Shown piece by piece: positions 16,338 to 34,662 of a DNA stretch of 41,797 nucleotides. A program made the position numbers and the translations under genes. The notes below the pieces were generated by a model. It was not told the DNA's origin, did no database searches, and worked only from the letters and a program-made list of their open reading frames with translations. The stretch lies in the NCBI GenBank assembly GCA_018005585.1, contig JAGMZX010000012.1, positions 25,253-67,049 on the forward strand, given 5' to 3'. The stretch comes from Candidatus Hydrogenedentota bacterium. GTDB taxonomy: Bacteria; Hydrogenedentota; Hydrogenedentia; Hydrogenedentales; JAGMZX01. Position 1 is the stretch's first letter; each line of letters starts with the position of its first letter.

Positions 16338-17575
16338 GAGGCGCCCTCCAATGCTTCACCCGCGCCCGCGCGCTGCGCCGGAGCGCGCCGCAACAAGTCG
16401 TCAACAACGGGGAATACGTCCTCAGGGGAAATCGTCTTCAGACAGACATTGTTCGTGCAGCGCGTATCCTTCGAGTAGAACAGGTTCAAGCACGGGCTGC
16501 AATGGAGTTCCCGGTAGAACACGCGATGATGTTCGCCGACGGGGCCGTAGAGTCTTGGCGTTTCCGGGCCGAAGAAAGAAACGGTAGGTATGCCGCACGC
16601 CACCGCGAGATGCAACGGACCGCTGTCGTTGCCGATAAATAGGACGGCTCGACGCAGCAAGGCGGCCAATTCCTCGATGCTGAGATGGCCCGCCAGGTTG
16701 TGCACGCGGCGGTCCGGGAAACGTCGCGCCAAGCCGTCCACATAGCCGGATTCCTCCCCGGCGCCGATTAGGGCCACGACGAGGTGCGCGCCGTAAGGCT
16801 CCGCAGACAGCATCTCGCGGATCAGCCGCTCGAAATGGCCCAGGGGCCAGCGCCGATTCGGACACAGATCGCTCGCGTTCACGTTCGCAACCACGAGTAG
16901 ATCATCTGCACGCAACCTCTCACTTTCGAGCAGCGCATCGACGCGCGCCAAGGCTTCGGGCCTCGGCCGGATGCCGCATTCGGACAGCGGCCGGTACGTC
17001 GCGGGGACGCCGAGCGGCGCGAGCATCTTCAGGAAAAGGCGCGAGATGTGCTGGGACACGTCAATAGCGATCATGTGGGTGAAAATCCAGTCGCGGACGC
17101 GCCGGTTATTGAAGAAACCGATGCAAACTGTGTGCGTCGTCCGCAGGAGCCGTGTAATCAACGCCACGTAGTAGGAAAAGAACTCGCAATCGAAGATGAT
17201 ATCGAAGCGTTGACGCCGCAGCCGAAGAATCTGCCTAATTGTCTCCGCAAGGAACACGAGAATCCCCTTGCGAAATTCGACCGTGGCCACGTCGTCGATC
17301 ATGGGGAGCAGCCGGGCAGCACCGGCGTTCTGCGCAAACGTCAGCAGCGTGATGCGCGCATCGGGATGCGCTTCTTTCAGCGCCGCGAGCATCGGGCACA
17401 TCTGGAGAATGCTGCCGAATCCGAAACACTTGATGGCCAGAATGGCGCGCGGCGCTTGGGGCGGCGTAGCCCGGCGTTTGCCTCCGAACATGGAAACGAC
17501 GTCTAGCAACCGCAATCCGAGACACAACAGGAAGCCGCAATGAAGATCAATCTTTCGCGCCAGACTGACTCTCAC
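16322..17575 (-). CDS. glycosyltransferase family 9 (heptosyltransferase-like)
   Basis: The 417-residue cytoplasmic enzyme has the GT9 layout: an N-terminal Rossmann domain (ILAIKCFGFGSILQMCPMLAAL, the acceptor side) and a C-terminal ADP-sugar domain. Diagnostic later text includes VVANVNASDLCPNRRWP, VALIGAGEESGYVDGL, NLAGHLSIEELAALLRRA and LFIGNDSGPLHLAVACGIPTVSFFGPETPRLYGP, quoted here in separate pieces of the family's donor-binding core. A cysteine pair near the end (HCSPCLNLF, RCTNNVC) is as in many family members. GT9 enzymes transfer heptose or related sugars to lipopolysaccharide core. The GTG start at 17575 overlaps the upstream stop by 4 bp (GTGA), so translation is coupled. An N-terminal extension of ~40 residues with a hydrophobic stretch may tether it to the membrane. 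Confidence 0.92.
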   Translation of the reverse strand: MRVSLARKIDLHCGFLLCLGLRLLDVVSMFGGKRRATPPQAPRAILAIKCFGFGSILQMCPMLAALKEAHPDARITLLTFAQNAGAARLLPMIDDVATVEFRKGILVFLAETIRQILRLRRQRFDIIFDCEFFSYYVALITRLLRTTHTVCIGFFNNRRVRDWIFTHMIAIDVSQHISRLFLKMLAPLGVPATYRPLSECGIRPRPEALARVDALLESERLRADDLLVVANVNASDLCPNRRWPLGHFERLIREMLSAEPYGAHLVVALIGAGEESGYVDGLARRFPDRRVHNLAGHLSIEELAALLRRAVLFIGNDSGPLHLAVACGIPTVSFFGPETPRLYGPVGEHHRVFYRELHCSPCLNLFYSKDTRCTNNVCLKTISPEDVFPVVDDLLRRAPAQRAGAGEALEGASCSES

Positions 17576-19626
17576 GGGGTGCGATCCTCAGGCCCCTCCT
17601 GCGGGGTTATGCGCTGTACGGCCTGGACCCAGATTGCCATATCGCGCAGGTCAATGTGAAAACCGGCCGGCGCAGGGGGATTTACGTACCATCCCGCGGA
17701 TGCGGCCTGGACGCCTGGCGGACATAATACCCGAAACTGGAACACGGCCCATCTGGGGCGCATTCCGTTCGATGAAGCGCTGGGCACGGCCCTGCGCCTG
17801 CTATCCACGATAGACCCGTGTGCATCAAAGAAGCGCAACGCCAGACCCGTATTTCGCAGGCTTACGTCGCCCCTGACCGCCGCGCGAACTGTAATCAGGT
17901 TACCCTCGGACACCGAAAACGGCGGCGAGTATGTCGCCCAGAATGCGTCCGGTTCGGGAAAGCGCACCCGAAGCGCGGAATGCCCCGGAGTTTGCTCACC
18001 TGCCGCCGCGGTCAGTTCGACGTGACCGGCGTCGCCGTCCATGGTCCACGGATGCAACCGCGCCAGCGGCGGCGCGGCCTGATCGACGCTGAACGGCGGA
18101 GCAAGCGTTCTTTGCGGGGTCCCCAACGCGAGCCACCCCTGATACAGCGCGCAGCCGCGGTACGAGGCGGCCGGTCGCATGGCGTGCGCGCCGGAAATCT
18201 GCGGCAACTCGGCCAAATCGGGCGGCGACGCGATCCACCAGAGTCGGCAGCTTTCGGGCGGCTCGGGACTTGGCCGGAGGACGGGGAACACGTAACGCGT
18301 CAGGTAATGCTCGACGGGCGCGGGCAACTGCTGATCAAAACCGACAACATCGTCATCCTCCATGTGTACGGCGAGGAAGCGAGCGGCGGACTTGCAGTCC
18401 GCGAACACACACGTGAGCCAGGTTGTCCCGCGGGGGAAATCCCGGACGTAGAAATGGGCCGTCGCCGCACAGTATAGGCCGATGAAGACGCAGGCCGTCG
18501 CCGTGCGCAATCCCGAGGATGACGAGACCAAAAAGCCCGGAATGCGGGCAAGCGCCCACGCCAGCGCATCGATGCAGGCCACGACCCCGGCGGCCAGCGC
18601 TATGACGAAGAATGGCAATAGAAACAAGGTGTAACGCGGTTCCGGCTTGAGGTCCACGACGAGCAACGCCGCAGCCGGACACGCCAATGCAGCAAGGAGA
18701 ATGCCTGCCCCGAATCGCCTGCGCGCGAGCGCCGTAAGGAGACCGAACAGAGCGAGCGCCGCGGCACACCAGAAGGCTATGCCGACAAGGCCGGTAATCG
18801 ATTCGGCGAATCTGTCGAACGGATGCCAGACAGACTGTTCCGCGCCGGACAAGAAGTTCAGGAGGTCTTCGGGCCACGCGCCGTGGAAGATGCGCCGCCA
18901 TAACCCGCGATGGAGCGAAAAGACAGGAAGGTAGGCGATACATACAAGCGCCAGGCCTATGCCAAGTGCGGCCGCTGTAATGGCGGCGCGCCCGAGCGCC
19001 TGAATGGGTCGTGACCGGCCCGCCAGGCATACCCCCGCCGTGAACGCGACAAGGACCGCGGCCCAGGCGCTGAGCAGGACAAGGGAGGAGAGGTGCGTGA
19101 GGCCCATGACGAATGTGCAGAGCGCCAGTGCGGCCAGTCTCGGCACCGTGGGTCGATCAAGGCAGAGGTAGAGCAAGAGCGCGGAAGCCAGTGCGCAGAG
19201 CATGACCAAGGTGTAGCCGCGCGCGCTCATGGAATACGCGACATGATAAGGGGCCCAGGCAAGCAACGCCGCCGCAACAAGTGCGACGGCGCGGCTGTTG
19301 AGCAAAGTCCGGCCCGCACCATACACCGTTGGAATAGCGGCTAACCCAAACACCAGGGCGGGAAGCTGCAGCACCCAGTCCCGTTCGCCGAACGCCAGAT
19401 ACGCCAGCCACATCAGGAATGAATAGACCGGGTGGTTCGTCGAAAAGTACGGCTGAAGAAAGATGCCGCGCCACCCTTTCCTGACGAAAAGGTCGAATGC
19501 CACGGCTTCGTCCGGGGTGATGCAGTAGTCCCAGCCTTGAAGTCGGAGCAGGAGGCCGAATAACAGGATTCCGCACAGCAAGGCGCGCGTGGCATGGCGT
19601 TCAGCATGTGGAGTACTGTTCGCCAT
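17572..19626 (-). CDS. GT39-like membrane glycosyltransferase with jelly-roll C-terminal domain
   Basis: The 684-residue protein opens with a transmembrane helix followed by the first extracytoplasmic loop DYCITPDEAVAFDLF (acidic pair as in PMT/ArnT enzymes). NHPVYSFLMWLAYLAFGERDW and further helices follow to about residue 400, the GT39/GT-C fold that uses polyprenyl-phosphate sugars on the periplasmic side. Residues ~530-670 are different: WATYSPPFSVSEGNLITV, LALRFFDAHGSIVDSRRR and GWYVNPPAPAGFHIDL read like a carbohydrate-binding jelly roll of the CBM4/9 type. I start at ATG 19626; a GTG at 19692 in frame adds 22 polar residues. It leads the operon with GT9 and radical SAM genes. Acceptor and sugar are unknown. 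Confidence 0.84.
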   Translation of the reverse strand: MANSTPHAERHATRALLCGILLFGLLLRLQGWDYCITPDEAVAFDLFVRKGWRGIFLQPYFSTNHPVYSFLMWLAYLAFGERDWVLQLPALVFGLAAIPTVYGAGRTLLNSRAVALVAAALLAWAPYHVAYSMSARGYTLVMLCALASALLLYLCLDRPTVPRLAALALCTFVMGLTHLSSLVLLSAWAAVLVAFTAGVCLAGRSRPIQALGRAAITAAALGIGLALVCIAYLPVFSLHRGLWRRIFHGAWPEDLLNFLSGAEQSVWHPFDRFAESITGLVGIAFWCAAALALFGLLTALARRRFGAGILLAALACPAAALLVVDLKPEPRYTLFLLPFFVIALAAGVVACIDALAWALARIPGFLVSSSSGLRTATACVFIGLYCAATAHFYVRDFPRGTTWLTCVFADCKSAARFLAVHMEDDDVVGFDQQLPAPVEHYLTRYVFPVLRPSPEPPESCRLWWIASPPDLAELPQISGAHAMRPAASYRGCALYQGWLALGTPQRTLAPPFSVDQAAPPLARLHPWTMDGDAGHVELTAAAGEQTPGHSALRVRFPEPDAFWATYSPPFSVSEGNLITVRAAVRGDVSLRNTGLALRFFDAHGSIVDSRRRAVPSASSNGMRPRWAVFQFRVLCPPGVQAASAGWYVNPPAPAGFHIDLRDMAIWVQAVQRITPQEGPEDRTP

Positions 19627-22195: not shown

Positions 22196-22295
22196 ATGCA
22201 CCGGATTTGCCCCATTTTGCCCAGGTAACCCGCGTTTGGTGGCGCGGCAAGTCGCGATCGTGATATGAAGGGTGCTCCAATCGGAAGAGGTTCTT

Positions 22296-22751
22296 ATGGT
22301 CGGCGGAATACTGAACGGTTTCGACATCGTGACACGGCATCTCATCATGGAGAAGGACCTGAACGCTGAAGGGCATCTCTTCGGCGGCGCAATGCTGGCC
22401 TGGCTCGATGAGGCGACGGGCGTCTACGTCATGGAAAAGATCGGCTACCCGGATTTTGTCACGGTCGGGCTGGACGACGTATATTTCAAGGCGCCGGGGC
22501 ACCGCGGCGACGTCATTACCATCTACTGCAGGATTGTGAAGACCGGCGCTTCGTCCATCACGGCGGAGACCAAGGCGGTCAACCACGAATTGCGCACGGG
22601 CGTGGACCGCGAGATCATCACCTGTCATTTCACGTTCGTGTGTCTCAAAGACCACAAGGCATATCCGTATTTCAAAAGTCCCGAGTACCGGAATTGGTTG
22701 AAACGGCAGCAGGCCGCCGGCCGCCCGAAAACGCGGCGGCGCGCCCCGTGA
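22296..22751 (+). CDS. hotdog-fold acyl-CoA thioesterase
   Basis: The 151-residue protein belongs to the YciA/BACH-type hotdog thioesterases, which release free acids from acyl-CoA in the cytoplasm. The active-site segment DLNAEGHLFGGAMLAWLDEA (21-40) supplies the Asn23 and Asp38 typical of this group. The central strand text DFVTVGLDDVYFKAPGHRGD and IVKTGASSITAETKAV is also as in the family. The ATG at 22296 has GGAAGAGG 5 nt before it; a GTG at 22272 would add eight residues. It is followed after 17 bp by the isomerase-like gene on the same strand and is divergent from the GHMP kinase. The acyl substrate cannot be told from the sequence. Confidence 0.9.
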   Translation: MVGGILNGFDIVTRHLIMEKDLNAEGHLFGGAMLAWLDEATGVYVMEKIGYPDFVTVGLDDVYFKAPGHRGDVITIYCRIVKTGASSITAETKAVNHELRTGVDREIITCHFTFVCLKDHKAYPYFKSPEYRNWLKRQQAAGRPKTRRRAP

Positions 22752-22768
22752 GGACCAGGAGACCCCTT

Positions 22769-23713
22769 ATGACAACCGTAATGAATCGTCGAGGCTTTCT
22801 GTGCGCCGCGGCGGCAGGCGCGGGCGCGGCCGTCACCTCCAGCGCGCTGGCCCAAACGCCCGCGCAGCGCTACCAGGAGTCGATCAGCCCTTGGCCTCTT
22901 GCGCTCAACGCAAGCACAATCCGGCCCACGCCGCCGCTGGACAAGATTCGCGTCGCCGCGGAAACCGGGTGGGATGCCATCGAGCTGTGGATCAACGATC
23001 TGGAGCAAATCGAAGACGAAGGCGGCAACCTGAAGGATGTAGCCAAACAAATCCAGGACCTCGGCCTCTTTGTCCCGAACATCATTGGCCTGTGGGACTG
23101 CCTGCCGCCGACGCCGGCAGCCTTCAACGAGTCCCTCGTGAAGACGCGCGAGCGCATGTGCCGCGCCGCGGATATCGGCTCGCATTTCGTCGCGGCCATT
23201 CCGTCGCCGGACCGCCCCGATTTCGACCTGAAATGGGGCGCGGAGTGTTACCGGCGCCTGCTTGATATCGGGCGCAACGACTACGGGATCACCGTCGCGT
23301 TCGAGTTTGTCGGGTTCATGAAGGGCGTACACCGGCTCGGTCAGGCTGCGGCCATTGCGCTCGACGCGGACCACCCGGACGCCTGCCTCATCTGCGACAC
23401 GTTCCACTTGTACCGGGGCGGCTCGGGATTCCACGGCATACGGCACGTCGCACCCACGCTTATCGCCAATTTCCATTGGAATGACATGCCCGCGGACGTG
23501 CCCCAGTTCGAGGGCAAAGACGAACACCGCCTCTATCCCGGCGAGGGTATCCTGCCGCTGAACCAGGCGCTGCAGGACCTGAAGGCCATCGGTTATGCGC
23601 GCACGCTCTCGCTCGAACTGTTCCGCCGCGAGCATTGGGAACAAGACCCGAAGGCCGTGGCCGAGACCGGTCTACGCAAGATGCGAGACAATATTGCCGC
23701 CGCGGGCGTATAA
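22769..23713 (+). CDS. Tat-exported TIM-barrel sugar isomerase/epimerase-like protein
   Basis: The 314-residue protein carries a twin-arginine signal (NRRGFLCAAAAGAGAAV, residues 6-22), so it is exported folded. The remainder is an AP-endonuclease-2/xylose-isomerase-like barrel: LDKIRVAAETGWDAIELWI near 56, FVPNIIGLWDCLP, VAFEFVGFMKG near 170, ICDTFHLYRGGSGF near 210, HWNDMP and EHRLYPGEGILPLNQAL. The Glu, Asp-His and His-Asp positions of these pieces are the usual metal ligands of the family; hydroxypyruvate isomerase and inosose-type enzymes are close in style. Substrate unknown. The ATG at 22769 has AGGAG 7 nt upstream. The frame is open upstream through the thioesterase gene, without family residues. 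Confidence 0.9.
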   Translation: MTTVMNRRGFLCAAAAGAGAAVTSSALAQTPAQRYQESISPWPLALNASTIRPTPPLDKIRVAAETGWDAIELWINDLEQIEDEGGNLKDVAKQIQDLGLFVPNIIGLWDCLPPTPAAFNESLVKTRERMCRAADIGSHFVAAIPSPDRPDFDLKWGAECYRRLLDIGRNDYGITVAFEFVGFMKGVHRLGQAAAIALDADHPDACLICDTFHLYRGGSGFHGIRHVAPTLIANFHWNDMPADVPQFEGKDEHRLYPGEGILPLNQALQDLKAIGYARTLSLELFRREHWEQDPKAVAETGLRKMRDNIAAAGV

Positions 23714-23721
23714 GAGGGCTC

Positions 23722-23754
23722 GGGGCGGGGCGCGCCCTTAGCGCGCCTCGGCCC
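23722..23754. terminator. GC-rich hairpin between two convergent genes
   Basis: Bases 23722-23735 and 23741-23754 pair almost completely (10 bp next to a 5-nt loop, one mismatch, then 3 more), a very stable stem. It spans the end of the TPR gene, whose stop codon overlaps the loop, and begins 9 bp after the isomerase stop. No U-tract follows on either strand, so it would be an imperfect or factor-assisted barrier rather than a classical terminator. Confidence 0.45.
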
Positions 23755-24466
23755 CCGTTCCGGATACGCCGTATTTCGCGAGTGCGTCGCGCGCCGGGCG
23801 GCATTCCGGATTAATGCGCAAGGCGTGACGCCAGTCTTGGACAGCCGCCACGGTGTGGCCCGCCTGTTCGTGGGCCAGCCCGCGCAACAGCAGCGCCTGC
23901 TCGTTATCGGGGTCCTTCGCCACAATAGCATCAAGCAATGCGATGGCCTTGATGGGGTCGCCGCCCTGACTGCGCTCCGCAAACACGAAGGGCTTCACTT
24001 CGGTGAGCCGCGCCCTCAAGTTATCCGGGTCCAGTTCCAGCGCCCGGGCAAGCGCCGAGTCCATCAGTTTCCGGTACTTCTTCGCCTGGTAACCGGTGCG
24101 GATCATGACGCCGTACACGTCCGCGCGGATCCGCTGCGTTTCCGACGTTTCCGGCAGTCCATCGAGGCATCCGAGGGCTTCCCCGGCCGCGGCGTCGATC
24201 TGTGCGCCCAGCGCGCGCCGCGCCGCGCGGTCTTCCGGCGGCAACGCTTCAAATTCGATGCGCCGCAATTCCGCGAGCAGCAGCAGGCTGCGCACGAACC
24301 ACTCCCTCCGCGCCGGGTCGGCCAGCGCTTCCGCGTCCGCACGCTGCGCCTCAACCAGCGCCGCTGCCGCCGCGGCGTCATAACGGCATTGCGCGTCGCG
24401 CAGGCCGTCCTCGACCGCGCCCGGACTCGCCGGTTGCGTCAGCAGCAGGACAAGCAGCGGGATCAT
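23738..24466 (-). CDS. TPR-repeat protein, exported or membrane-anchored
   Basis: The 242-residue protein starts at ATG 24466, overlapping the hydrolase stop by 4 bp (ATGA). Its first 20 residues (MIPLLVLLLTQPASPGAVED) form a short hydrophobic signal. The C-terminal half has tetratricopeptide helices: LMDSALARALELDPDNLRAR, AIALLDAIVAKDPDNEQALL and AAVQDWRHALRINPECRPAR. The middle is helical and Ala/Arg/Glu rich without a known family. TPR domains are protein-binding scaffolds. It ends the five-gene operon with SCP2, RND, adenylate-forming and hydrolase genes, so it may scaffold that machinery; this is inference from context only. Confidence 0.78.
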   Translation of the reverse strand: MIPLLVLLLTQPASPGAVEDGLRDAQCRYDAAAAAALVEAQRADAEALADPARREWFVRSLLLLAELRRIEFEALPPEDRAARRALGAQIDAAAGEALGCLDGLPETSETQRIRADVYGVMIRTGYQAKKYRKLMDSALARALELDPDNLRARLTEVKPFVFAERSQGGDPIKAIALLDAIVAKDPDNEQALLLRGLAHEQAGHTVAAVQDWRHALRINPECRPARDALAKYGVSGTGAEAR

Positions 24467-25170
24467 GACGGGCGGCTCTCCGCACATCCGGCAAACAGGC
24501 AATCGGCGACGGCCTGAAACAGGCGCTCTTCTTCACGGCGGAAGAAGTGGTCGCATCCATCCAGTTTGCGGTATGTCTTGGGCGGCTGCAACGCCGCATA
24601 TTCGTCAAGAAATGATTCCAGCGCGAATGCGAAATCATCTTCGCCAAAGAAAAAGCACTTGGGCGCTGCGCACGCGCGAAACGCCGCCAGCGGCACGCGG
24701 CGCACGGGCGGGCTGACGCCGATCACACAGGCAGGGTCCGCAGCCGCGGCCAGCATGCCCGCGATCACCGCGCCAAGCGAATACCCGATAATGACCCGCC
24801 GCGCGCCGGGCAGCCACCGGCCCAGCGCATGGAACGCGCCCGCCGCATCGGGGAGCAGTTCTTCGTAGCGCTGCCGCGCTTCCATTTCGGCGAAATGGTC
24901 GAAGACACTTTCGCCGGGCCGCAGCCGGATTTCGCTCGCGCCCACGCCGCGGTAATTGAAGCGCAGGCTCAGCGCGCCCGCGGCCGCGCCGCGCCGCGCG
25001 AGATGGCGCACGACGTTATTGTCCATCGTGCCGCCCATGTGCGGGTGCGGCGCGAGGACCACGAACGCCGCGCGCGGCACGCTCGTCTCGGGATAGGCCA
25101 GCACGCCTTCAAGCCGCAATTCGCCGGCGTCGAAAACGGTCCGTTCTTCAACGAATTCCCGTTCGCTCAT
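24463..25170 (-). CDS. alpha/beta hydrolase
   Basis: The 235-residue protein is an alpha/beta hydrolase of the small cytoplasmic type (COG2945-like): VVLAPHPHMGGTMDNNVV near 37-54, LRFNYRGVGASE near 69, nucleophile elbow GYSLG (129-133, Ser131), then FFFGEDDFAF (acid residue near 177) and LDGCDHFF (catalytic His near 208). Esterase, thioesterase or lipase activity is typical; no signal peptide is seen. Its start overlaps the stop of the adenylate-forming gene by one base (TGATG), and its stop overlaps the TPR start, so the genes are translated in concert. Within this operon a thioesterase or esterase role toward the activated acid is plausible but unproven. Confidence 0.87.
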   Translation of the reverse strand: MSEREFVEERTVFDAGELRLEGVLAYPETSVPRAAFVVLAPHPHMGGTMDNNVVRHLARRGAAAGALSLRFNYRGVGASEIRLRPGESVFDHFAEMEARQRYEELLPDAAGAFHALGRWLPGARRVIIGYSLGAVIAGMLAAAADPACVIGVSPPVRRVPLAAFRACAAPKCFFFGEDDFAFALESFLDEYAALQPPKTYRKLDGCDHFFRREEERLFQAVADCLFAGCAESRPS

Positions 25171-26204
25171 CAGTAGAGCCCGATGTTCTGGTTCGGCGCG
25201 TCCGCGGGCAGTGGGTCGCGCACGCCCTCGCGCTGGAATCCCGGCGCCTGTATTTCATGAATCACGGGCGCGGCCTCGTCGCGTTCGATAACATTCGGCA
25301 ATAGCGCGCTCTCGTCCAGCCGATGGAAACGCACGCGCCCGCGCGCCGCGCCTTCCGGCGCGTCCACGCGCAATACCAGTCGATGACCGTAAGGGTAATA
25401 CTCGGGCGGCGCGTCCGGGTCATACTTCAGTTGCGGGCACATACCCGCGAGGCTGTTCCCGTATCCCGACAACGCCACCGCGTTCGGGAACCACGCCGCC
25501 GTCAGGTTCTTCCGGAATTCGGTGTCCAGCGCCATGCCGCCCAGATGGATGCCGGTAATGGCCTCGCGCAGCGGCTGTTCCAGGCGCTCGCCCAGCACGC
25601 GCAGCACGGGCGGCGTCGCGAAGAGCACGCCGATATGCTGGGATCGCAGCACGGCTTCGGCTTGCGCCAGCACGTGGTCCAGGTAACGGGTCCGGGCAAG
25701 CGAGTCCCCCGGCAGCCGCCGGGCCCAGCGGGGGTCGAAATCGACCATGAATGGGTCGACGGACCCCATGGCGACGGCGCAGGCGCGCGCGGCCTTGCCG
25801 ATGATGTGCGGGCCCGACGGCCCGATAAACAGCCAGTGCACGTTGCGCGGGAACCGCACCCGCGCCGCGGCTTCGAGAAATGGCGCGATGAACGCCGCCT
25901 CGAATTCGTCCTTGCGGAATGCCGTTCTCTTGGGCGGCCCCGTGGTCCCGCCGGTCTCGGTCGTAATGAATTCAGGCAGGCGGTCGTGAAATCGCCGGGG
26001 GATAAAGTCCTCGATCGGGCGCTCCGCCAGCAGCCCGGCCGGCATGGGCCCAAAGCGGTCGAGGTCTTCAATACTCGTCACGTGCCGGCGCGGGTCGAAG
26101 CCCAATTCCGGGGCGCGTTCGAGCCAATAGGGCGCCCCCCACTTCGGATCGAAATGAAGTTCCATGATGCGGGCAAGATGGGCGCGCATGGGACCCGTGT
26201 TCAT
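25170..26204 (-). CDS. adenylate-forming enzyme (PaaK/LuxE-like), short
   Basis: The 344-residue protein contains the ATP/AMP-binding phrase TTETGGTTGPPKR (81-93) of the ANL superfamily. Downstream are the style elements LFIGPSGPHIIGKAARA, FATPPVLRVLGERLEQP, ITGIHLGGMALDTEFRKNL and VALSGYGNSLAGMCP (the AMP-contact turn), then YYPYGHRLVLRVDAP. PaaK-type CoA ligases are about 430 residues; this one lacks much of the usual C-terminal lid and may make an acyl-adenylate for a separate acceptor, as LuxE-like acyl-protein synthetases do. The ATG at 26204 overlaps the RND stop (ATGA). The frame stays open far upstream inside the RND gene, but with no family residues, so that extension is rejected. 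Confidence 0.82.
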   Translation of the reverse strand: MNTGPMRAHLARIMELHFDPKWGAPYWLERAPELGFDPRRHVTSIEDLDRFGPMPAGLLAERPIEDFIPRRFHDRLPEFITTETGGTTGPPKRTAFRKDEFEAAFIAPFLEAAARVRFPRNVHWLFIGPSGPHIIGKAARACAVAMGSVDPFMVDFDPRWARRLPGDSLARTRYLDHVLAQAEAVLRSQHIGVLFATPPVLRVLGERLEQPLREAITGIHLGGMALDTEFRKNLTAAWFPNAVALSGYGNSLAGMCPQLKYDPDAPPEYYPYGHRLVLRVDAPEGAARGRVRFHRLDESALLPNVIERDEAAPVIHEIQAPGFQREGVRDPLPADAPNQNIGLY

Positions 26205-28405
26205 GTTGCCTTGTCCCCATACCGGAAAATCAGCGCCGGCGTCATTACCAGGTCGGCGGCCAGCGCCGCGATCATCGCCGCTCCGGCCAGCAACCCGAAG
26301 TATTGTATCGGCACGAAGGTCGACGCGCACAACGCGAAGAACCCGCAACACGACGTAACCGTTGCGATAACCATGGCGGGAGCCACGTGCCGCAGCGTGG
26401 TGCGCAATGCTGCTTCCTTCCCGGCTCCTGCGCGGCGGTCCTGCCGGTAGGCCGTGACCAGGTGCGCCGTGTTGTCTACGGCAATGCCGACGGCCACACT
26501 GGCCATCATGACCGTAGCGGCGTCGAGAGCAATACCGGCCGCGGCCATAATCGCAAATGCCGCGAGCACCGGCAAAAGGTTCGGCGGGATCGCGAGCAGC
26601 GTCAGCCGCCAGGAGCGCAACCCGGCCAGGATGCACAGGAAGACGACCACAAATGCCAGGCTGAAACTCCGTAACTGCATGAGCACGAGGTTAAGTTGGG
26701 CGTGAACCAGTCGCGGAACCATACCCGTCACGCATCCCGTCAAGGGCCGCGGCAGCGCGTCCATGGCCCGTTCCGCCGCGCGCAGTATTTCCAGGAATTG
26801 CGGCGACGCCATGACACGCACCAGCACCGACAGGCGGACGGCCCGGCCCTCGCTGGTCACAAACCGGGCCAACTGCGCGCGGCCCGCATCATCAAGCCCG
26901 GCAAGCAATTGCCCCGCTGCCGACTCGTCTTCCGGCAGCCGATAGTATCCGGAATCGGGGGCGTGGTCCCACTGATTGAGCTTCTTCAGCAGGTCCACCG
27001 GCGATAACACGCGGGCCACGCCCGGCACGGCCTCCAATTGCCTGGCCGCGCCGTCGAGCGCACCCCACACGCCGCGGTCGAGCCAGCCATCCGGCGCATC
27101 GACCAGCATCTCGATCGTGTAGAATCCCGTCAGCCGTTCGCCGACAAACCGGTAATCGCGCACCGCAGGCGAATCGGCCGGCAGGAACGTGAGCGGGTCC
27201 GCTTCCGTGCGCACCCAGCACACGGCAATCAATGAGGCCGTTCCCAGCACCCCGCCCGCGATGAGCACCATGCCCGAACGCCGCGAGGCAAGCCCGGCCA
27301 GCGCGTCCGTCCAGCCCCCGACGCGCGTCCGCGGCGAGTGCGCGGGCACGCGCAGCCACCGCGCCAGCAGCGGCGCGACCCCGAGGCTGACCGCCAGCGA
27401 CACCATCATGCCGAGCGCCGCGAATACCCCGAGTTCGCGGACCGGCTCCATGTCCGCCGTGAGCAACGCGCCGAACCCGCACGCGGTCGTGACCGCGGCG
27501 ATTGTGCAGGGCAACGCAGTTTCGCGCAAAGCCCTTTCCATCGCGGCGCCGGATGTTGTGCACTCAGGCCGGTGGTGCTGATACCGGCGCAAGATATGCA
27601 CGACATTCGCGAGCGCAAGCACCCAGAGCAAGGCAGGCAGCACGGACGTGACCATGTTCATGGACCGGCCGGAAAGGCCCATCGCGCCCAGGGTGAGCAC
27701 AAGCGAGAGCCCGGCGCACGCACCACAAACCACCGTCGCGCGCACGGACCGGAATTGCAGCGCCAGCACAAGCGCGGCGCATACCGCGGCAATAGGGAAA
27801 ATGCGAGCCGACTCGCGTTCCGAGGTCTCATCTAATACGGCATTCAAGGCGGGCGAACCTGCAAGATGCACCCCATAGCCGTATTGCCGCAGCGGTTCGA
27901 CGGCTGTCTCGATAGCATGCACCAGTTCGCGCCGGCCCAGCGGTCCGGCGGCCGGAGCCGCTTCAATGAATATTCCCGCCACGGAGCCGTCGGCGGAAAT
28001 CACGAAGTCCTGAAAAAAGGGTGTCGCGAGCATGTCTTCGCGGAACGCATCCAAATCCTCCGCGCCGAAGAAATCCCGGTATACGGCCGGCACCCCCCAG
28101 ACCCGCAGCACGCCCGCAATCCCCTCAATCCGTTCAAGCGCGGCGACCTGCGCATCTAGGCCCGGCTCATCAAGTATTTCGCGCCCCGCGTACGCGACGA
28201 GAACAAATTCGTCGCTGCCGAAGAAGCTGCGGAACCGCTCATACTGCCGCGCGGCGTCGCCCTCGGGTTCCAGCCACCGCTCCAGCCGGTTGTCAATGCC
28301 CACACGGAACGCGAGGGGAACCGCCGCGACGGAAAGCAAGAGCAACGTGTAGCCTGCAAGGTCCAGGAGGCGTCTGCCGGGGTGAGGTTTCGCGCGCGCG
28401 CTCAT
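26201..28405 (-). CDS. RND-superfamily exporter (MMPL/HpnN-like)
   Basis: The 734-residue inner-membrane protein has the duplicated RND plan: helix 1 (about 15-33), a periplasmic domain to ~200, five helices to ~365, helix 7 (about 388-408), a second periplasmic domain and five more helices to the end. The helix-4 type motifs LPALLWVLALANVVHILRR in the first half and MMASVAVGIAVDNTAHLVTA in the second (Asp/Asn-His relay positions) support proton-driven transport. It is smaller than AcrB and close to MMPL/HpnN-type lipid transporters, which move lipids or hopanoids. Start ATG 28405 overlaps the SCP2 gene stop by 4 bp. No periplasmic adaptor is linked, as usual for this subgroup. Confidence 0.93.
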   Translation of the reverse strand: MSARAKPHPGRRLLDLAGYTLLLLSVAAVPLAFRVGIDNRLERWLEPEGDAARQYERFRSFFGSDEFVLVAYAGREILDEPGLDAQVAALERIEGIAGVLRVWGVPAVYRDFFGAEDLDAFREDMLATPFFQDFVISADGSVAGIFIEAAPAAGPLGRRELVHAIETAVEPLRQYGYGVHLAGSPALNAVLDETSERESARIFPIAAVCAALVLALQFRSVRATVVCGACAGLSLVLTLGAMGLSGRSMNMVTSVLPALLWVLALANVVHILRRYQHHRPECTTSGAAMERALRETALPCTIAAVTTACGFGALLTADMEPVRELGVFAALGMMVSLAVSLGVAPLLARWLRVPAHSPRTRVGGWTDALAGLASRRSGMVLIAGGVLGTASLIAVCWVRTEADPLTFLPADSPAVRDYRFVGERLTGFYTIEMLVDAPDGWLDRGVWGALDGAARQLEAVPGVARVLSPVDLLKKLNQWDHAPDSGYYRLPEDESAAGQLLAGLDDAGRAQLARFVTSEGRAVRLSVLVRVMASPQFLEILRAAERAMDALPRPLTGCVTGMVPRLVHAQLNLVLMQLRSFSLAFVVVFLCILAGLRSWRLTLLAIPPNLLPVLAAFAIMAAAGIALDAATVMMASVAVGIAVDNTAHLVTAYRQDRRAGAGKEAALRTTLRHVAPAMVIATVTSCCGFFALCASTFVPIQYFGLLAGAAMIAALAADLVMTPALIFRYGDKAT

Positions 28406-28833
28406 GGCATATACGGAAACCGCTGGAAGAAGGGCGCGAGCACCGTACTCAGTTTCAGCCCCATCTCGATGTCGCCCTCCAGTTGGATGCGCATGTCGAA
28501 GAAGGCTTCCTGCGGCGCAATGTGCCCCGCAACGACCTCGAGCAGCGTGCCCGCGTCCAGAGTGAAGCGGCAGACCGGCTCCGGTTCGTCAGGACCAGCC
28601 TGAACCAGCCGTCCCTCCTCCACCACCAAACGCCACGGCGCACCGGCCCCGTCGCTAACCGCGATCTCGAAGCAGACAGAAAGCGTCTTCAAGTCCTCGA
28701 GCAGCAATTGGCCATGGATGCGCGGCAGGAATTCGGTGAAGTAACGTTCTGCGCCTGCGATCGTGTCCGCCATGTAGACCAAAGATCCTTCCATACTGCC
28801 GCGGAGCCTGGAGAGACGCGCGGCAAGACGCAT
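28402..28833 (-). CDS. SCP2-like lipid-binding domain protein
   Basis: The 143-residue protein looks like a stand-alone sterol-carrier-protein-2 fold: YFTEFLPRIHGQLLLEDL, then a strand pair SVCFEIAVSDG and WRLVVEEGRLV, CRFTLDAGTLLEVVAGHIAP and FFDMRIQLEGDIEMGLKLST, where the GD-(x)-h-(x)-h ending is characteristic. SCP2-type domains bind hydrophobic ligands; UbiJ and UbiT of ubiquinone synthesis contain this fold. The ATG at 28833 has GGAGAG 9 nt upstream; a GTG at 28908 would add 25 basic residues and cannot be excluded. It heads the minus-strand operon and diverges from mqnE. Assignment is by pattern, with moderate confidence. Confidence 0.7.
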   Translation of the reverse strand: MRLAARLSRLRGSMEGSLVYMADTIAGAERYFTEFLPRIHGQLLLEDLKTLSVCFEIAVSDGAGAPWRLVVEEGRLVQAGPDEPEPVCRFTLDAGTLLEVVAGHIAPQEAFFDMRIQLEGDIEMGLKLSTVLAPFFQRFPYMP

Positions 28834-29110: not shown

Positions 29111-30184
29111 ATGACACCAGAAGAAACGGAACCACCGGGGCCTAGACTCCGCCGCGAAGAGGCGTTGACGCTCCTGCGCCAAACGCCCCTGCTAGAACTG
29201 GGCCGCCGTGCGTTCGACCGGAAACGGGCGCGTTACGGCGACTGCGTGACATATGTGCGCAACCGTCACGTTAATCCCACTAATCTCTGCGTTTATTCCT
29301 GCAAATTCTGCGATTTTGCCGCAAAGAAGGGTGATGAACACGCCTATTTGCTCTCTGAAGAAGAGGTTCTGGGCAGCCTGGCCGACCCGGACCTCCGGGA
29401 AACGCACATCGTCGGCGGTTTGTGGCCCAAGTGGGGTTTCGACCGCTCGATCGCGCTGGTGCGCCGCATCCGGGCTGCGCGGCCCGACCTGTACATCAAA
29501 GCGTTTACCGCCGTCGAGGTTGCCTATTTCGCGCGGATGGAGCGTACCGATGTCGAGTCCGTGCTCCGCGCCATGATCGACGCAGGGGTGGACCTCATGC
29601 CGGGCGGAGGTGCGGAAGTGCTCAGCGAGCGAGTTCACAGAGAACTCTTCCCGGACAAGATCGGGCCCGAGGAGTGGTTGAAGATCCACGAGAAAGCCCA
29701 TTGCCTCGGTCTGCCCAGCAACGCGACGCTGCTTTTCGGCCACACCGAGACCGACGAGGAGACCGTGGACCACCTGCTTCGAATTCGTGACCTGGAAGAC
29801 CGCGCTCCCGGCTTTCAGAGTTTCGTTCCGCTTGCGTATCAGCCTGGCACAACGCAGGTCGCGCCCCGGCCGGCGAGCGCGCCGCGATGCCTGCGCATCA
29901 TGGCTTTGGCGCGGCTGGCGCTCGATAACGTGCCGCATATCAAGGCCTATACGCCGGCGCTGGGCGTAGAGACGGCCGTGGCCGCGCTCACGTTTGGCGC
30001 GGACGACCTCGACGGCACGCTCGGACAGGAACGCATCATGCAATTGGCCGGAACCGCATCCCCGGCGTCGCTCACGGCCCAACTCATGGACCGCATGATC
30101 CGCCAGGCGGGGCAAGCCCCCGTCGAACGCGACGGCCTGTTCCGTCCGGTGCGCGGGGAAACCGCTCAGCTCGTTTCCGTCTAA
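29111..30184 (+). CDS. mqnE: aminofutalosine synthase
   Basis: MqnE is the radical SAM enzyme that joins the chorismate-derived enolpyruvyl benzoate to SAM to make 6-amino-6-deoxyfutalosine, an early step of the futalosine menaquinone pathway. The cluster motif is C60-VYS-C64-KF-C67 in the family phrase HVNPTNLCVYSCKFCDF. Later family text: HIVGGLWPKWGFD, IKAFTAVEVAYFARM, LMPGGGAEVLSERV, GLPSNATLLFGHTET and FVPLAYQPGTT. At 357 residues the length is normal. It is distinguished from MqnC by the LAYQPGTT region and by the presence of a separate MqnC gene below. It opens the mqnE-mqnA-mqnC-mqnD run. Confidence 0.95.
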   Translation: MTPEETEPPGPRLRREEALTLLRQTPLLELGRRAFDRKRARYGDCVTYVRNRHVNPTNLCVYSCKFCDFAAKKGDEHAYLLSEEEVLGSLADPDLRETHIVGGLWPKWGFDRSIALVRRIRAARPDLYIKAFTAVEVAYFARMERTDVESVLRAMIDAGVDLMPGGGAEVLSERVHRELFPDKIGPEEWLKIHEKAHCLGLPSNATLLFGHTETDEETVDHLLRIRDLEDRAPGFQSFVPLAYQPGTTQVAPRPASAPRCLRIMALARLALDNVPHIKAYTPALGVETAVAALTFGADDLDGTLGQERIMQLAGTASPASLTAQLMDRMIRQAGQAPVERDGLFRPVRGETAQLVSV

Positions 30185-30195
30185 AGGACCACGCC

Positions 30196-30981
30196 ATGCT
30201 ACGCATTGCCCGCATAAACAACCTTTCCGCGCGTCCGTACGCGTTGGTTCCGCCCGCGTTTCCCGCGGACGTGATGCCGTGCACGCCGACGGAGGTGTAC
30301 AGCCGCGCGGTGCGAGGCTACTGCGATGTGGCGCTGATGCCGGTGGCGCGCCTGCGCGAACTGCAGGACCGGTTCGAGCCCTTGGGCCCTTACGGCATCG
30401 CCGCGCGCGGGCCCGCCCACAGCGTGGCAGTGTTCTCGAAGCTGCCGCTTGAACATGTCGTTGCCGAAAGACGGCCGGTCCACGTGACGCAGAAGTCGCA
30501 GACGTCGCGCGAGTTGTTTGCCATCTTATGCCGCCACAGCATCGGCTGCGAACCGGTACTTACGATCCGGTCCGAGGAAGCCGACGCCCGGCTGCTCATC
30601 GGAGACGAGGCGGCGGACACGGCGCGGGAAGAATCTCGTTGGCCACACCGGTGCGACCTCGGCCAATGGTGGTTCGACATCATGGGCCTGCCCTTCGTCT
30701 TTGCGCGCTGGGTAGTGCGGCGCGACTTGCAGCGCGACGAGCGCCGCCTCGTGCGGCAGTGGCTGGAAGAAACAACGGTTTTCGCGGCGTCGCCGGAGGG
30801 CATGCGGCATCTGGCGGAGGCGGGGTTCCCGAACCTGACCGGGGCCGCTGCGGCCCGGCGGGCAAAGGAATACTACACCAGTATTCACGCGAGGTTGACG
30901 TTCTACGATCTGCACGGACTGAGCGTCTTTCTGCGCTGCCAGGAAGCGCGGGAGCAGGAACAATGGGTCAAGAGCGCATAG
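30196..30981 (+). CDS. mqnA: chorismate dehydratase
   Basis: MqnA removes water from chorismate to give 3-[(1-carboxyvinyl)oxy]benzoate, the first committed step of the futalosine pathway. The 261-residue protein is a periplasmic-binding-protein-like fold without a signal peptide: RIARINNLSARPYALVP at the N-terminus, AVRGYCDVALMPVARL near 38-53, GIAARGPAHSVAVFSK near 67, SQTSRELFAIL, DARLLIGDEAAD and DLGQWWFDIMGLPFVFARW near 157. AAAGGA lies 7 nt before ATG 30196 and the gene is 11 bp after mqnE. Its last 19 bp overlap mqnC, so the two are translationally coupled. Confidence 0.94.
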   Translation: MLRIARINNLSARPYALVPPAFPADVMPCTPTEVYSRAVRGYCDVALMPVARLRELQDRFEPLGPYGIAARGPAHSVAVFSKLPLEHVVAERRPVHVTQKSQTSRELFAILCRHSIGCEPVLTIRSEEADARLLIGDEAADTAREESRWPHRCDLGQWWFDIMGLPFVFARWVVRRDLQRDERRLVRQWLEETTVFAASPEGMRHLAEAGFPNLTGAAAARRAKEYYTSIHARLTFYDLHGLSVFLRCQEAREQEQWVKSA

Positions 30982-32102
30982 GGGCCCGCGAAGCCTTGTA
31001 TTTGCTGCAGGACGCGCCGCAGTTGACGCTGATGGAGCAGGCGGACGCAGTGCGCCGCGCGAAACATCCGGGCAACGATGTCACGTTTGTCATCGACACA
31101 AACCCGAACTACACGAATATCTGCGTGACCGGCTGCGCCTTTTGCAGCTTCTACCGCAAGGAAGGCCATCCGGATGCATACACGCTGACGCCGGAGCAGG
31201 TGGCGGAGAAGGTCGCGCGCGCCCAGGCTTGCGGCGCCACCACCGTCCTGTTACAGGGCGGTCACAATCCCGCGCTGCGCTTCTCGTACTACCTCGGCCT
31301 GATTGCCGAAATTCAAAAGGCCGCACCAGGCATTCACCTGCACCTGTTTTCGCCGCCGGAAATCGCGCACATCGCCGAAACAAGCAACATGGCCTGGGAA
31401 ACCGTGCTGCGCGCGTTCTGGGACGCAGGCATGCGCACCATGCCGGGCGGCGGCGCGGAAATCCTCGTCGATGAAGTGCGGCGCGGCGTTTCGCCGAAGA
31501 AGATTTCGAGCGATACGTGGCTGGACATCATGCGCACGGCGCATCGTGTCGGCTTGAAGACGAGCGCCACCATGACCTACGGCCACCGCGAATCGCCGGA
31601 GCACATCATCGAGCACCTGATGCGCCTGCGCCGTTTGCAGGACGAAACGGGCGGTTTCTACGCCTTCATCCCCTGGAGTTTCAAGCCCGGCCATTCGCCG
31701 CTGCGGCGGCTGGTCGGGGAAGAGGAACTGCCCAGTCTCTACGTGCGCGTGATTGCCGCCGCGCGGCTCGTGCTCGACAATGTTCCGCATATCCAGGCCT
31801 CGTGGTTCGGCGAAGGCTGGCGCGCGGGCCAACTGGCGCTGCATGCGGGCGCGGACGACTTCGGCGGACTGTTGCTGGAAGAACACGTGCTGCAACAGGC
31901 GAAGCATGGGGTAGCCACGTCCCTTGAAGCCCTGCTGACGACGATCCGCGACGCGGGCTTCACGCCCGTCCAGCGGACGACTGCTTACGACATCCTGCGC
32001 CGCTTCGACGATCTCCCAAACGCCTTTGCGGGACCGCTTTCCTGCGCGCGCGGCAACGACGGCGCACCGCGGCTGGATACGGCGCTCGCAGGCGCGGTCT
32101 GA
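30963..32102 (+). CDS. mqnC: cyclic dehypoxanthinyl futalosine synthase
   Basis: MqnC is a radical SAM enzyme that cyclises dehypoxanthinyl futalosine into the spiro compound later cleaved by MqnD. The cluster motif is C54-VTG-C58-AF-C61 in NYTNICVTGCAFCSFYRK. Other family text: TVLLQGGHNPALRFSYYLGL, MRTMPGGGAEILVDEVRRG, LKTSATMTYGHRESPEHIIEH (quoted within limits as separate motif pieces: KTSATMTYGH and EHIIEHL), FIPWSFKPGHSPL and VLDNVPHIQASWFGEG. The ATG at 30963 fits the family length (379 residues); the frame is open much further upstream inside mqnA but without family residues. It ends 16 bp before mqnD. Confidence 0.95.
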   Translation: MGQERIGAREALYLLQDAPQLTLMEQADAVRRAKHPGNDVTFVIDTNPNYTNICVTGCAFCSFYRKEGHPDAYTLTPEQVAEKVARAQACGATTVLLQGGHNPALRFSYYLGLIAEIQKAAPGIHLHLFSPPEIAHIAETSNMAWETVLRAFWDAGMRTMPGGGAEILVDEVRRGVSPKKISSDTWLDIMRTAHRVGLKTSATMTYGHRESPEHIIEHLMRLRRLQDETGGFYAFIPWSFKPGHSPLRRLVGEEELPSLYVRVIAAARLVLDNVPHIQASWFGEGWRAGQLALHAGADDFGGLLLEEHVLQQAKHGVATSLEALLTTIRDAGFTPVQRTTAYDILRRFDDLPNAFAGPLSCARGNDGAPRLDTALAGAV

Positions 32103-32118
32103 GAAGGAAACGTCAAGA

Positions 32119-32919
32119 ATGCAATTGCGTATTGGACACAGCCCGGACCCGGACGACGCGTTCATGTTCTACGGTTTTGCCTCGGGGCAGGTGGCCGTAC
32201 CGGGTTACGACATCGAGCACGTGCTCGGCGATATCCAGTCGCTCAACGAGCGCGCAGCGAGCGGCGACCCGCTCGAAGTGACCGCCCTGTCGCTGCACGC
32301 ATTTCTCCATCTTGAAAATCGCTATGCACTGCTCGAAGTGGGAACGAGCGTAGGCCGCCGTTACGGTCCGCGGCTTGTCGCGCGGCATGCCGCGCCGATC
32401 GAAGCACTCGCAGGCAAACGCATCGCGTTGCCGGGGCCAAAAACCACGGCCACGCTCATCGCACGCGGATTGCTGCCGCCCTTCCATGAAATTCACATGG
32501 ACTTCATCCACATCATGGGCGCCGTCGCGTCCGGCGCGGTGGACGCGGGCGTAATCATTCACGAAGGGCAATTGACCTTCGCCGAACACGGGCTTGCGCT
32601 GCTGGCCGACCTTGGCGAACTGTTCGCGCATCGGCACAACGGCCTGCCGCTGCCGCTCGGCGTCAATTGCGTGCGCGGCGACCTCGCGCCGGAGCTGCGC
32701 GGCGCCATTGCGCACGCCTATCGCAGGTCCGTCGAAATCGCGTTAGCTCAGCGCAGCGCCGCGGTCGAGTACAGCCTCAGGTTTGCGCGGGGGCTTTCCC
32801 GGGAATTGGCGGATCAATTCGTAGGGATGTACGTAAATGAGGACAGCCTGGCGTTCCACGACGAATTGCGCGAGGCCGTTCGGGTCATTCGCGAGCAGTA
32901 CCTGCGCTCCGCCGCATGA
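32119..32919 (+). CDS. mqnD: 1,4-dihydroxy-6-naphthoate synthase
   Basis: MqnD releases 1,4-dihydroxy-6-naphthoate from the cyclic futalosine product. The 266-residue protein begins with the diagnostic LRIGHSPDPDDAFMFYG and continues with VLGDIQSLNERAASGD, TALSLHAFLHLENRYALL, RIALPGPKTTATLI, VDAGVIIHEGQLTFAEHGL and NGLPLPLGVNCVRGDL, all family text, including the active-site His of IIHEGQ. AAGGAA precedes ATG 32119. With mqnE, mqnA and mqnC it covers the route from chorismate to the naphthoate. MqnB (aminofutalosine hydrolase) or an equivalent, and the later prenylation, decarboxylation and methylation genes, are not in this window. Confidence 0.95.
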   Translation: MQLRIGHSPDPDDAFMFYGFASGQVAVPGYDIEHVLGDIQSLNERAASGDPLEVTALSLHAFLHLENRYALLEVGTSVGRRYGPRLVARHAAPIEALAGKRIALPGPKTTATLIARGLLPPFHEIHMDFIHIMGAVASGAVDAGVIIHEGQLTFAEHGLALLADLGELFAHRHNGLPLPLGVNCVRGDLAPELRGAIAHAYRRSVEIALAQRSAAVEYSLRFARGLSRELADQFVGMYVNEDSLAFHDELREAVRVIREQYLRSAA

Positions 32920-32969
32920 TTTGGGGCACAGGCCGTACACGAACAGAACAAGACAAGGATAAGGAGCAA

Positions 32970-33506
32970 ATGGAACAACCGAGAATATTGACGAAGAAAG
33001 AAGTGGTCGACGCCGTGCGGCAAAGCGAGTGCTTCAAGGCCGAGGCAGCTTACGCCGCGCGCGGCGGATACAAGACGCTGGCCGGCCCGCGATTGTACAA
33101 GGAACTTGAAGACGAACAGGTGCGCGTGGTTTTTCCCACGAATACGGCGAACCTCGAAGAAGGCTCGGTAATCGCGATTACCTGCCTCTTCGACCGGAAA
33201 GAGAACGTCAACATATACGGCCACACCATTTGCGCGGGGCCGGGCGTCAACGCGCTGTTGCGCGCGATCCACGCCCCGCTCGGCAAGGCCACGCCCCAGC
33301 CCGGCGAGGCCGGCGAGAAGGCCGTACTGCATTTCGTGGCCTGGAAACAGGCGGCGTGGGGCAAGTTCCTCAACGACGAACTCGAATACGGCAACCGGAA
33401 AGCCTCTGAAATCTGGATTCGCAGTTTCTGGAAAGCGCTCGACCGCATGTTCGGCGGAGGCGTGCTGATGAACGTGCCGGATGACTTCCACTGGAAGGAA
33501 AATTGA
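32970..33506 (+). CDS. conserved-looking protein of unknown function in the mqn operon
   Basis: I do not recognise the family. The 178-residue product lacks a signal peptide or membrane segment. It starts LTKKEVVDAVRQSECFKAEA, has alternating strands such as VRVVFPTNTANLEEGSVIAI and ENVNIYGHTICAGPGVNALL, and ends with aromatic-rich helices (VLHFVAWKQAAWGKFLNDEL, EIWIRSFWKALDRMFGGGVL). It is a compact, globular, probably cytoplasmic protein. The ATG at 32970 follows AAGGAG closely (3 nt); a start at 32916 would overlap mqnD by 4 bp (ATGA) and give 196 residues, which is also possible. It lies 50 bp after mqnD and 3 bp before the lipoprotein gene, so it is most likely on the menaquinone transcript. 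Confidence 0.75.
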   Translation: MEQPRILTKKEVVDAVRQSECFKAEAAYAARGGYKTLAGPRLYKELEDEQVRVVFPTNTANLEEGSVIAITCLFDRKENVNIYGHTICAGPGVNALLRAIHAPLGKATPQPGEAGEKAVLHFVAWKQAAWGKFLNDELEYGNRKASEIWIRSFWKALDRMFGGGVLMNVPDDFHWKEN

Positions 33507-33509
33507 ACC

Positions 33510-34502
33510 ATGAAGAACACCGTCTACTGCCTGCTCTTAGCCTTGACCGTCCTGTCCGGATGCATGACCACCGGGGGCGGCAACCGCGAACTTGATACGC
33601 GCGGGCCCGTTTACGTGTACACCGCGGCGGACGATGGCAGCCGTTTCGCCCAGTACGCGCCCGTGTTTGTCGTCGAGCACGCGGAGGACGATTACAACCG
33701 CATCGGCACGCCTGCGGCACGCCTCAAGGACGGCGGCGAGGAAGATGTCTACGTTGATGCGGCGCGCCCGGCCATCTATGTCGAGGAACAGGAATTCACC
33801 GCGGAGCACGGGCATTACACGAACTTGGTTTACCGTGTGCATTTCGAGGAAAGCCCCTTCAGCTTCGGCAACTTCAACCCGTCCGCCGGCAAGAACGTCG
33901 GGCTGATGGCCGTGGTCACGCTGGATGACTCGGGCAAGCCCGTGCTCATCAACACGGTGCATACCTGCGGCTGTTATCACGCGGTGATCCCCACCAGCTA
34001 CCTGCCTTCGGACGCGTTGCCGCAAGACTGGAGCGCGGAAGAGCTTGCGAACTATGGCGAGCGGCTTCCCGGCATCGTTCAATACCCGGAATCATTCGAC
34101 ACGTCGGTGCGGCCCATCTTGTACCTGCGCGCGAAGACGCACCGGGTCAAGAACCTCGCCGCCGCGCCGCTTGACGTGGCTTTCGCGCAGGGCGAAGTCG
34201 TGCTGGCTCCGCTTGCGCCCATGGACGCGCTTAAGCACCTGGCCCTGGGCGACGGCAAGGAAACCTCCTTCTACTACGAAGAGGGCGACAAGAAGGGCCT
34301 GGTCAAGGGCGCGCGCAAACCGTGGGAGACGGCCTTGCTCGGGCTATGGGTCCAGGACAGCCGCGTCGGCCAGGACCGCGAATTCGGTTCGCAGGAAGAA
34401 ACCGGACAGCTCTTCTACACCACGCTTAACCCGAACAAGAAAGAGGCGTCCGACATGGCGGACTATCCGGCGTTCCTCTCCCTCAACGGCTGGCATATGT
34501 GA
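33510..34502 (+). CDS. lipoprotein of unknown function
   Basis: The 330-residue protein has a lipoprotein signal, MKNTVYCLLLALTVLSGC (Cys18 after L-S-G), so it is anchored to an envelope membrane. The mature part begins with a Gly/Thr linker and is mostly beta strand with acidic loops: VYVYTAADDGSRFAQYAPVF, EDVYVDAARPAIYVEEQEF, NLVYRVHFEESPFSFGNF. A distinctive NTVHTCGCYHAVIP segment near residue 150 has a Cys-Gly-Cys flanked by His residues that could bind metal. I do not recognise the family. It begins 3 bp after the unknown gene above and is followed by a strong terminator, so it ends the mqn transcript. Confidence 0.78.
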   Translation: MKNTVYCLLLALTVLSGCMTTGGGNRELDTRGPVYVYTAADDGSRFAQYAPVFVVEHAEDDYNRIGTPAARLKDGGEEDVYVDAARPAIYVEEQEFTAEHGHYTNLVYRVHFEESPFSFGNFNPSAGKNVGLMAVVTLDDSGKPVLINTVHTCGCYHAVIPTSYLPSDALPQDWSAEELANYGERLPGIVQYPESFDTSVRPILYLRAKTHRVKNLAAAPLDVAFAQGEVVLAPLAPMDALKHLALGDGKETSFYYEEGDKKGLVKGARKPWETALLGLWVQDSRVGQDREFGSQEETGQLFYTTLNPNKKEASDMADYPAFLSLNGWHM

Positions 34503-34591: not shown

Positions 34592-34662
34592 GAAGCGGGT
34601 GCCCGGACGAACCATTGCCAAGACGCCGGCCACTTTGGAAATGGACTGCGGAAATTAAACAC

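Follow-up and report, generated by a model that had tools for sequence, protein, structure and literature searches.

The Men route and the futalosine (Mqn) route to menaquinone are normally exclusive of one another. In a 2026 survey, both routes were evidenced in only 20 of the 13,096 genomes annotated for menaquinone production (PMC13386864). The late futalosine steps require the decarboxylase UbiD (MqnL), and mqnP, mqnL and mqnM are present in every Mqn genome studied (PMC4746308). In the biosynthesis of PM100117, a second futalosine gene set feeds the naphthoquinone moiety, and acyl-CoA-ligase genes are proposed to participate (PMC4763440). EhpF belongs to the enzyme set EhpF-O, which converts phenazine-1,6-dicarboxylic acid to D-alanylgriseoluteic acid (PMC3175449). 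Here we describe a gene module that encodes an EhpF-type adenylate-forming (ANL) protein together with an SCP2-domain protein, an RND transporter and an alpha/beta hydrolase. It lies in a 41,797-nucleotide stretch (the window) of contig JAGMZX010000012.1 from a Candidatus Hydrogenedentota bacterium (GCA_018005585.1), divergent from a set of futalosine genes. What is new is the link between the module and futalosine genes. The module recurs in distant bacteria, which points to a hitherto undescribed route to an electron carrier resembling vitamin K, or to a related lipid.

The first-pass annotation of the window described five overlapping minus-strand genes as possibly one machine that carries, activates, hydrolyses and exports a lipid or aryl acid. 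All five open reading frames are present where it placed them (Table 1), as are the four stop/start overlaps, which read ATGA (28402-28405 and 26201-26204), TGATG (25170) and ATGA (24463-24466). We surveyed 68 Hydrogenedentota genomes of a single order, with G000 being the genome of the window; most genomes compared in this study are metagenome bins. The ANL protein was found in seven of the 68, all of which keep the order SCP2-RND-ANL-hydrolase with ATGA- or TGATG-type overlaps. Since the same gene order and overlap type recur in every ANL-bearing relative, the overlaps go beyond chance. The prediction that the genes stay together in order within the phylum is thus borne out for these four (7/7) and, in part, across several phyla, which supports the conclusion that they form one inherited unit. 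The TPR gene follows the hydrolase in four of the seven genomes; the fifth gene is therefore an optional member.

The divergent genes, annotated as neighbouring menaquinone genes, are indeed mqnE-A-C-D, but rather than a mere neighbour they are the most consistent partner of the module. They adjoin it in all seven module genomes, and a strong MqnA plus MqnD pair occurs in exactly the seven of 68 genomes that bear the module, a match whose chance probability would be about 1e-9 under the assumption, not valid here, of independent genomes. Genus g13 holds both positive and negative genomes, so that in this genus at least, module and mqn genes were gained or lost in concert. Support for the association is good. 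The conserved neighbourhood takes in mqnEACD and also the two genes after them, up to position 34499; profile matches of the second of these, a putative lipoprotein, were found at loci L053, L067, L047, L022, L058, L050 and L019.

Further genes belong to the module in some members of the phylum. An NAD_binding_4 reductase and a DUF547 protein lie directly upstream of it in G014, G026 and G037, the only three of the seven module genomes with an orthologue of this reductase. In G000, a U32 protein (59% identity, 846 bits) and an aminotransferase (426 bits) are neighbours on another contig, and the pair is likewise adjacent in G001, G008 and G020; in seven relatives without the module, matches to either protein are distant at best. 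G026 carries on one strand mqnA-C-D, accessory genes, NAD_binding_4, SCP2, RND, ANL, hydrolase and U32, with the start of the aminotransferase lying at the contig end.

When the ANL profile was run against 84,980 species genomes, 55 loci turned up. Anammox bacteria are represented by Brocadia, Kuenenia, Jettenia, Scalindua, Loosdrechtia and Anammoxibacter; the other loci come from further Planctomycetota, Auribacter (Auribacterota), Omnitrophota, Sumerlaeota, Lentisphaerae, Verrucomicrobia, Gammaproteobacteria and Magnetococcales. For 41 loci, 7 kb or more of sequence was available upstream of the ANL gene; around this gene we counted SCP2 in 37, NAD_binding_4 in 35, a class-III aminotransferase in 33, RND in 28, a double U32 protein in 25 and the hydrolase in 24. 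The unit is therefore larger than first described: the five-gene set is not complete, since the NAD_binding_4 reductase, the UbiU/UbiV-like double U32 protein and the class-III aminotransferase also belong to it in other phyla. NAD_binding_4 and SCP2 are fused into a single protein in several lineages. The gap between ANL and aminotransferase is filled by the double U32 protein at some loci and by an MqnD-like one at others, seldom by the two together (loci L019-L067), and the in-module MqnD-like proteins (planctomycete, gammaproteobacterial and sumerlaeotal) form their own clade, separate from other MqnD.

The link to futalosine genes reappears outside the phylum. In Auribacter (L060), ANL-U32-aminotransferase-MqnA-NAD_binding_4-SCP2-hydrolase-MqnE-MqnC-MqnD are encoded consecutively on one strand. 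Gammaproteobacteria are known mainly for ubiquinone, and futalosine genes are unexpected there; mqnC/A/E/D nevertheless lie beside the module in two of their loci, L053 (8992-12738) and L064 (12421-16747). Among Planctomycetota, PF02621 was detected in all 21 genomes with a high-scoring ANL, but also in 206 of 294 overall, which adds little alone. Cytochrome b and multihaem cytochrome c genes neighbour the module in anammox and L020 clusters, and these redox neighbours favour an electron carrier as the product, without proving it. Note that at L065, in a bin lacking mqn genes, the module is followed by genes for a flavodoxin-fold NAD(P)H quinone oxidoreductase-like protein and an ABC transporter (16436-18714; assigned by eye).

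The ANL protein of the window has no Pfam match at E-values up to 1. Its family profile, however, matches EhpF in the PDB (3l2k, E=1.6e-44) with no other credible match, and its AlphaFold2 model (predicted local distance difference test, pLDDT, 92.2) retrieves 3hgv, 3hgu and 3l2k, all EhpF, as top Foldseek hits with a template modelling (TM) score of about 0.8, followed by PaaK-type ligases. The ANL fold assigned at first pass is thus confirmed. Homology to EhpF extends across the whole fold at 27% identity, the C-terminal domain being absent, as in EhpF, and motifs GGTTG, GPSGPH and ERDEA-type are conserved across several phyla. The proposed handling of a 'lipid or aryl acid' fits EhpF, a protein of an aromatic-acid-modifying pathway. 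Short EhpF-like ANL proteins with lower scores (about 150-200 bits), possibly a different family, form a second group in 59 further genomes of the 294 Planctomycetota.

The SCP2 fold was likewise recovered. The protein matches Pfam SCP2 above the curated cut-off (E=7.3e-15), its family profile matches SCP2 structures (E=7.7e-11), and the AlphaFold2 model (pLDDT 92) finds SCP2 and UbiJ structures with a Foldseek probability of 1.00; against NCBIfam UbiT it scores 29.3 bits, under the 46.9 cut-off. The RND protein is of HAE3/MMPL type, with 142 bits to Pfam MMPL (E=2.3e-41, above the curated cut-off) and 203 bits to TIGR00921, under its cut-off of 351.9. An HpnN-type hopanoid transporter was rejected on a score of 139 bits, far under the cut-off of 751.85, and we noticed no hopanoid genes nearby. 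The Asp motif, GIAVD, is found in the C-terminal half of the RND protein only; at the equivalent N-half site nearly all of the seven homologues have WVLxxA. The export claim is therefore not supported. For the hydrolase, Pfam gives sub-cut-off matches only, and the Ser-Asp-His triad is intact in all seven homologues; its best NCBIfam match is the Myxococcus type IV pili motility protein SglT (E=1.5e-10, under cut-off). The U32 protein of G000 has two U32 domains with four conserved cysteines each (by eye), and the double U32 architecture is seen with Pfam in the homologue at L068. Scored on that homologue, the module protein is related to UbiU (186 bits, cut-off 440), UbiV (87 bits, cut-off 275) and TrhP, under the cut-offs of all three.

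A search for UbiD was negative in all 68 Hydrogenedentota genomes, while a control search was positive in 9 of 14. MenD, in turn, scores over cut-off in the four module genomes tested (G000, G008, G014 and G026), and G008 has a complete menD-H-B-A-C-E cluster, all over cut-offs, in agreement with a survey of the phylum that reported a complete men set (PMC11406978). Since UbiD is absent and Men genes are present, the futalosine genes of Hydrogenedentota look like a second pathway. We favour, with a confidence just short of even, a branch that leads from 1,4-dihydroxy-6-naphthoate (DHN6) to a lipophilic, probably quinone-like product other than ordinary menaquinone. MqnA, MqnE, MqnC and MqnD, with a putative MqnB-type hydrolase, would make DHN6, which would not serve ordinary menaquinone because a UbiD-type decarboxylase is missing and the classical Men genes are there. 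The EhpF-type ANL would activate the 6-carboxyl, and activated DHN6 would then be elaborated or coupled to a lipid, with the alpha/beta hydrolase possibly assisting. The double U32 protein and the class-III aminotransferase, both encoded elsewhere in G000, could contribute an O2-free oxygen insertion, by analogy with UbiU/UbiV, and a step with an amine donor or acceptor, respectively; in many relatives the NAD_binding_4 reductase may be added. The SCP2 protein may bind the hydrophobic intermediates, a role proposed for UbiT and UbiJ, and the RND protein may move the lipid in or across the membrane. The gene set, its conservation, its link to mqn genes, the absence of UbiD and the presence of MenD are observed; that both divergent operons serve a single biosynthesis is an inference, as are DHN6 as the substrate, the sequence and type of reactions, a quinone-like product with redox activity, and which way the lipid is transported. 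What remains of the single machine first proposed is the one unit and both folds; the set is not complete, the TPR member is optional and export is unproven.

A bolder form of this proposal, a new class of lipoquinone, is one we consider unlikely: the 6-carboxyl carbon would be kept as a handle for chemistry or lipid attachment, and the product would be a second electron carrier besides menaquinone in anammox bacteria, Hydrogenedentota and several other lineages. Several observations weigh against a DHN6 branch. The ANL C-terminal domain normally completes catalysis, and the module protein lacks it; the expected Asp motif of the RND protein is kept in one half only. The NAD_binding_4 reductase orthologue was not found in G000, G001, G008 and G020, nor did G014 and G037 yield orthologues of U32 and the aminotransferase; the chemistry may thus differ between genomes, other proteins may stand in for these parts, or the parts may be missing from the assemblies. 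UbiA-family proteins are present, but we found no prenyltransferase specific to module genomes. Outside Hydrogenedentota, 26 of 33 module-bearing genomes have a UbiD homologue. Finally, anammox modules are not beside mqn genes, and three bins of Lentisphaerae/Verrucomicrobia type (G095, G096 and G098) bear the module with no PF02621 match and no MenD over cut-off.

These last two observations would suit a lipid-processing or transport machine unrelated to quinones, in which a fatty acid or another lipid acid is activated by the ANL and turned into an aldehyde or amine by the reductase and aminotransferase, with SCP2 as its carrier and RND as its transporter, and the mqn genes share the location but not the pathway. 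NAD_binding_4 is a fatty-acyl-reductase family, and its fusion to SCP2 in several lineages points the same way. We judge this alternative the strongest, yet doubtful: mqn adjacency recurs in Hydrogenedentota, Auribacter and Gammaproteobacteria, an MqnD-like gene sits inside planctomycete modules, the nearest ANL of solved structure belongs to an aromatic-acid pathway, and the double U32 protein is similar to hydroxylases that act on quinones and tRNA. It is less probable still that the module supplies the missing late menaquinone steps from DHN6, removing the carboxyl by activation instead of by UbiD/UbiX. Genomes with mqn genes beside the module mostly lack UbiD (the seven Hydrogenedentota, G068, G088 and G094), and neither G088 nor G094 has a MenD match over cut-off. 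However, the tested Hydrogenedentota have MenD, with the whole men cluster in G008, and menaquinone synthesis by Men has been published for the phylum (PMC11406978). Most anammox and planctomycete genomes, moreover, have both UbiD and the module; given UbiD in so many module genomes, the module is no mere replacement for UbiD. Least probable of all is a secondary-metabolite cluster for an exported phenazine- or naphthoquinone-like aromatic compound, and not for a lipid of the membrane or a carrier of electrons: the ANL homology to EhpF, the RND transporter, the patchy distribution within the phylum and the precedent of futalosine genes in one natural-product cluster (PMC4763440) fit it, but the core is stable in all anammox genera recovered and several other phyla, respiratory cytochromes are among its neighbours, and no carrier-protein, polyketide synthase or non-ribosomal peptide synthetase genes were seen in the core.

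Two more candidates were rejected. Because ANL and the NAD_binding_4 reductase stand together in most phyla, we considered an analogy with LuxE/LuxCDE or a split carboxylic acid reductase; there is no LuxE Pfam match and no reductase orthologue in G000. Ladderane biosynthesis was rejected given the presence of the module in many non-anammox phyla, and a word search did not find the module protein families named in the text of the ladderane candidate-gene paper (PMC2649909).

Table 1. Genes of the module and of the divergent futalosine operon, with window coordinates
Feature	Coordinates	Strand	Basis or remark
TPR protein, optional member	23738..24466	-	
alpha/beta hydrolase, Ser131-Asp179-His208 triad intact	24463..25170	-	
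short EhpF-type ANL (adenylate-forming) protein, 344 aa, without C-terminal lid domain	25170..26204	-	
RND/MMPL (HAE3-type) transporter	26201..28405	-	Pfam, NCBIfam, motif columns
SCP2-domain lipid-binding protein (UbiT/UbiJ-like fold)	28402..28833	-	first gene of minus-strand operon
mqnE, aminofutalosine synthase, divergent operon	29111..30184	+	TIGR03700 363 bits, best family, under cut-off
mqnA, chorismate dehydratase family	30196..30981	+	PF02621 E=1.2e-31; within MqnA clade
mqnC, cyclic dehypoxanthinyl futalosine synthase	30966..32102	+	TIGR03699 449 bits, above 428 cut-off
mqnD, 1,4-dihydroxy-6-naphthoate synthase	32116..32919	+	PF02621 E=1.3e-57; clade of other stand-alone MqnD
family-less protein after mqnD in Hydrogenedentota	32916..33503	+	homologues L010, L011, L013-L017
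putative lipoprotein, no assigned family	33510..34499	+	profile matches beside module in other phyla

On the opposite (plus) strand, immediately beyond the downstream end of the TPR gene, the window also encodes a YciA-like hot-dog thioesterase (22272-22751) and a sugar-isomerase-like protein with a twin-arginine-translocation (TAT) signal (22640-23713). Downstream of the mqn side lies a plus-strand open frame of 1395 amino acids (34615-38799).

If the DHN6 branch is real, it would be a new pathway in quinone or aromatic-lipid biosynthesis and would account for the co-occurrence of Men and Mqn genes in one genome. In the clusters of several anammox genomes, the module is continued by genes for cytochrome b and multihaem cytochromes. 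The Rieske proteins of Kuenenia have high potentials (+303 and +335 mV), and the unusual energetics reported with them were calculated assuming that the quinol is menaquinone-7 (PMC12954380). Speculatively, a second quinone of other potential would change that calculation, and the module may thus bear on anammox energetics.

How, then, does the module compare with the closest described systems? With HpnN and HAE3 lipid transporters the window RND protein shares the MMPL-type architecture, while differing in its scores, under the HpnN and TIGR00921 cut-offs, and in the absent N-terminal Asp motif. The O2-independent ubiquinone hydroxylation by UbiT, UbiU and UbiV (PMC10470549) likewise pairs an SCP2 protein with U32 domains; in the module, however, the U32 domains are fused, UbiT/UbiU/UbiV scores are sub-cut-off and a ubiquinone pathway is not expected in the phylum. 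No phenazine core genes were identified near the module, whose partners are instead SCP2, RND, U32 and the aminotransferase, but its ANL, like EhpF of the D-alanylgriseoluteic acid pathway, is short and lid-less, with 27% identity and a TM score of about 0.8. The adjacent mqnA, C, D and E homologues of Hydrogenedentota resemble the futalosine pathway, with DHN6 as the expected intermediate, and depart from it in lacking UbiD (MqnL) and in having MenD in the four module genomes tested. The PM100117/PM100118 clusters of Streptomyces have a polyketide context and modular ligase domains, and the part at hand of their description reports no SCP2, RND, U32 and class-III aminotransferase module; there too, a second futalosine set sends DHN6 to a non-menaquinone product, with ligases proposed to participate (PMC4763440).

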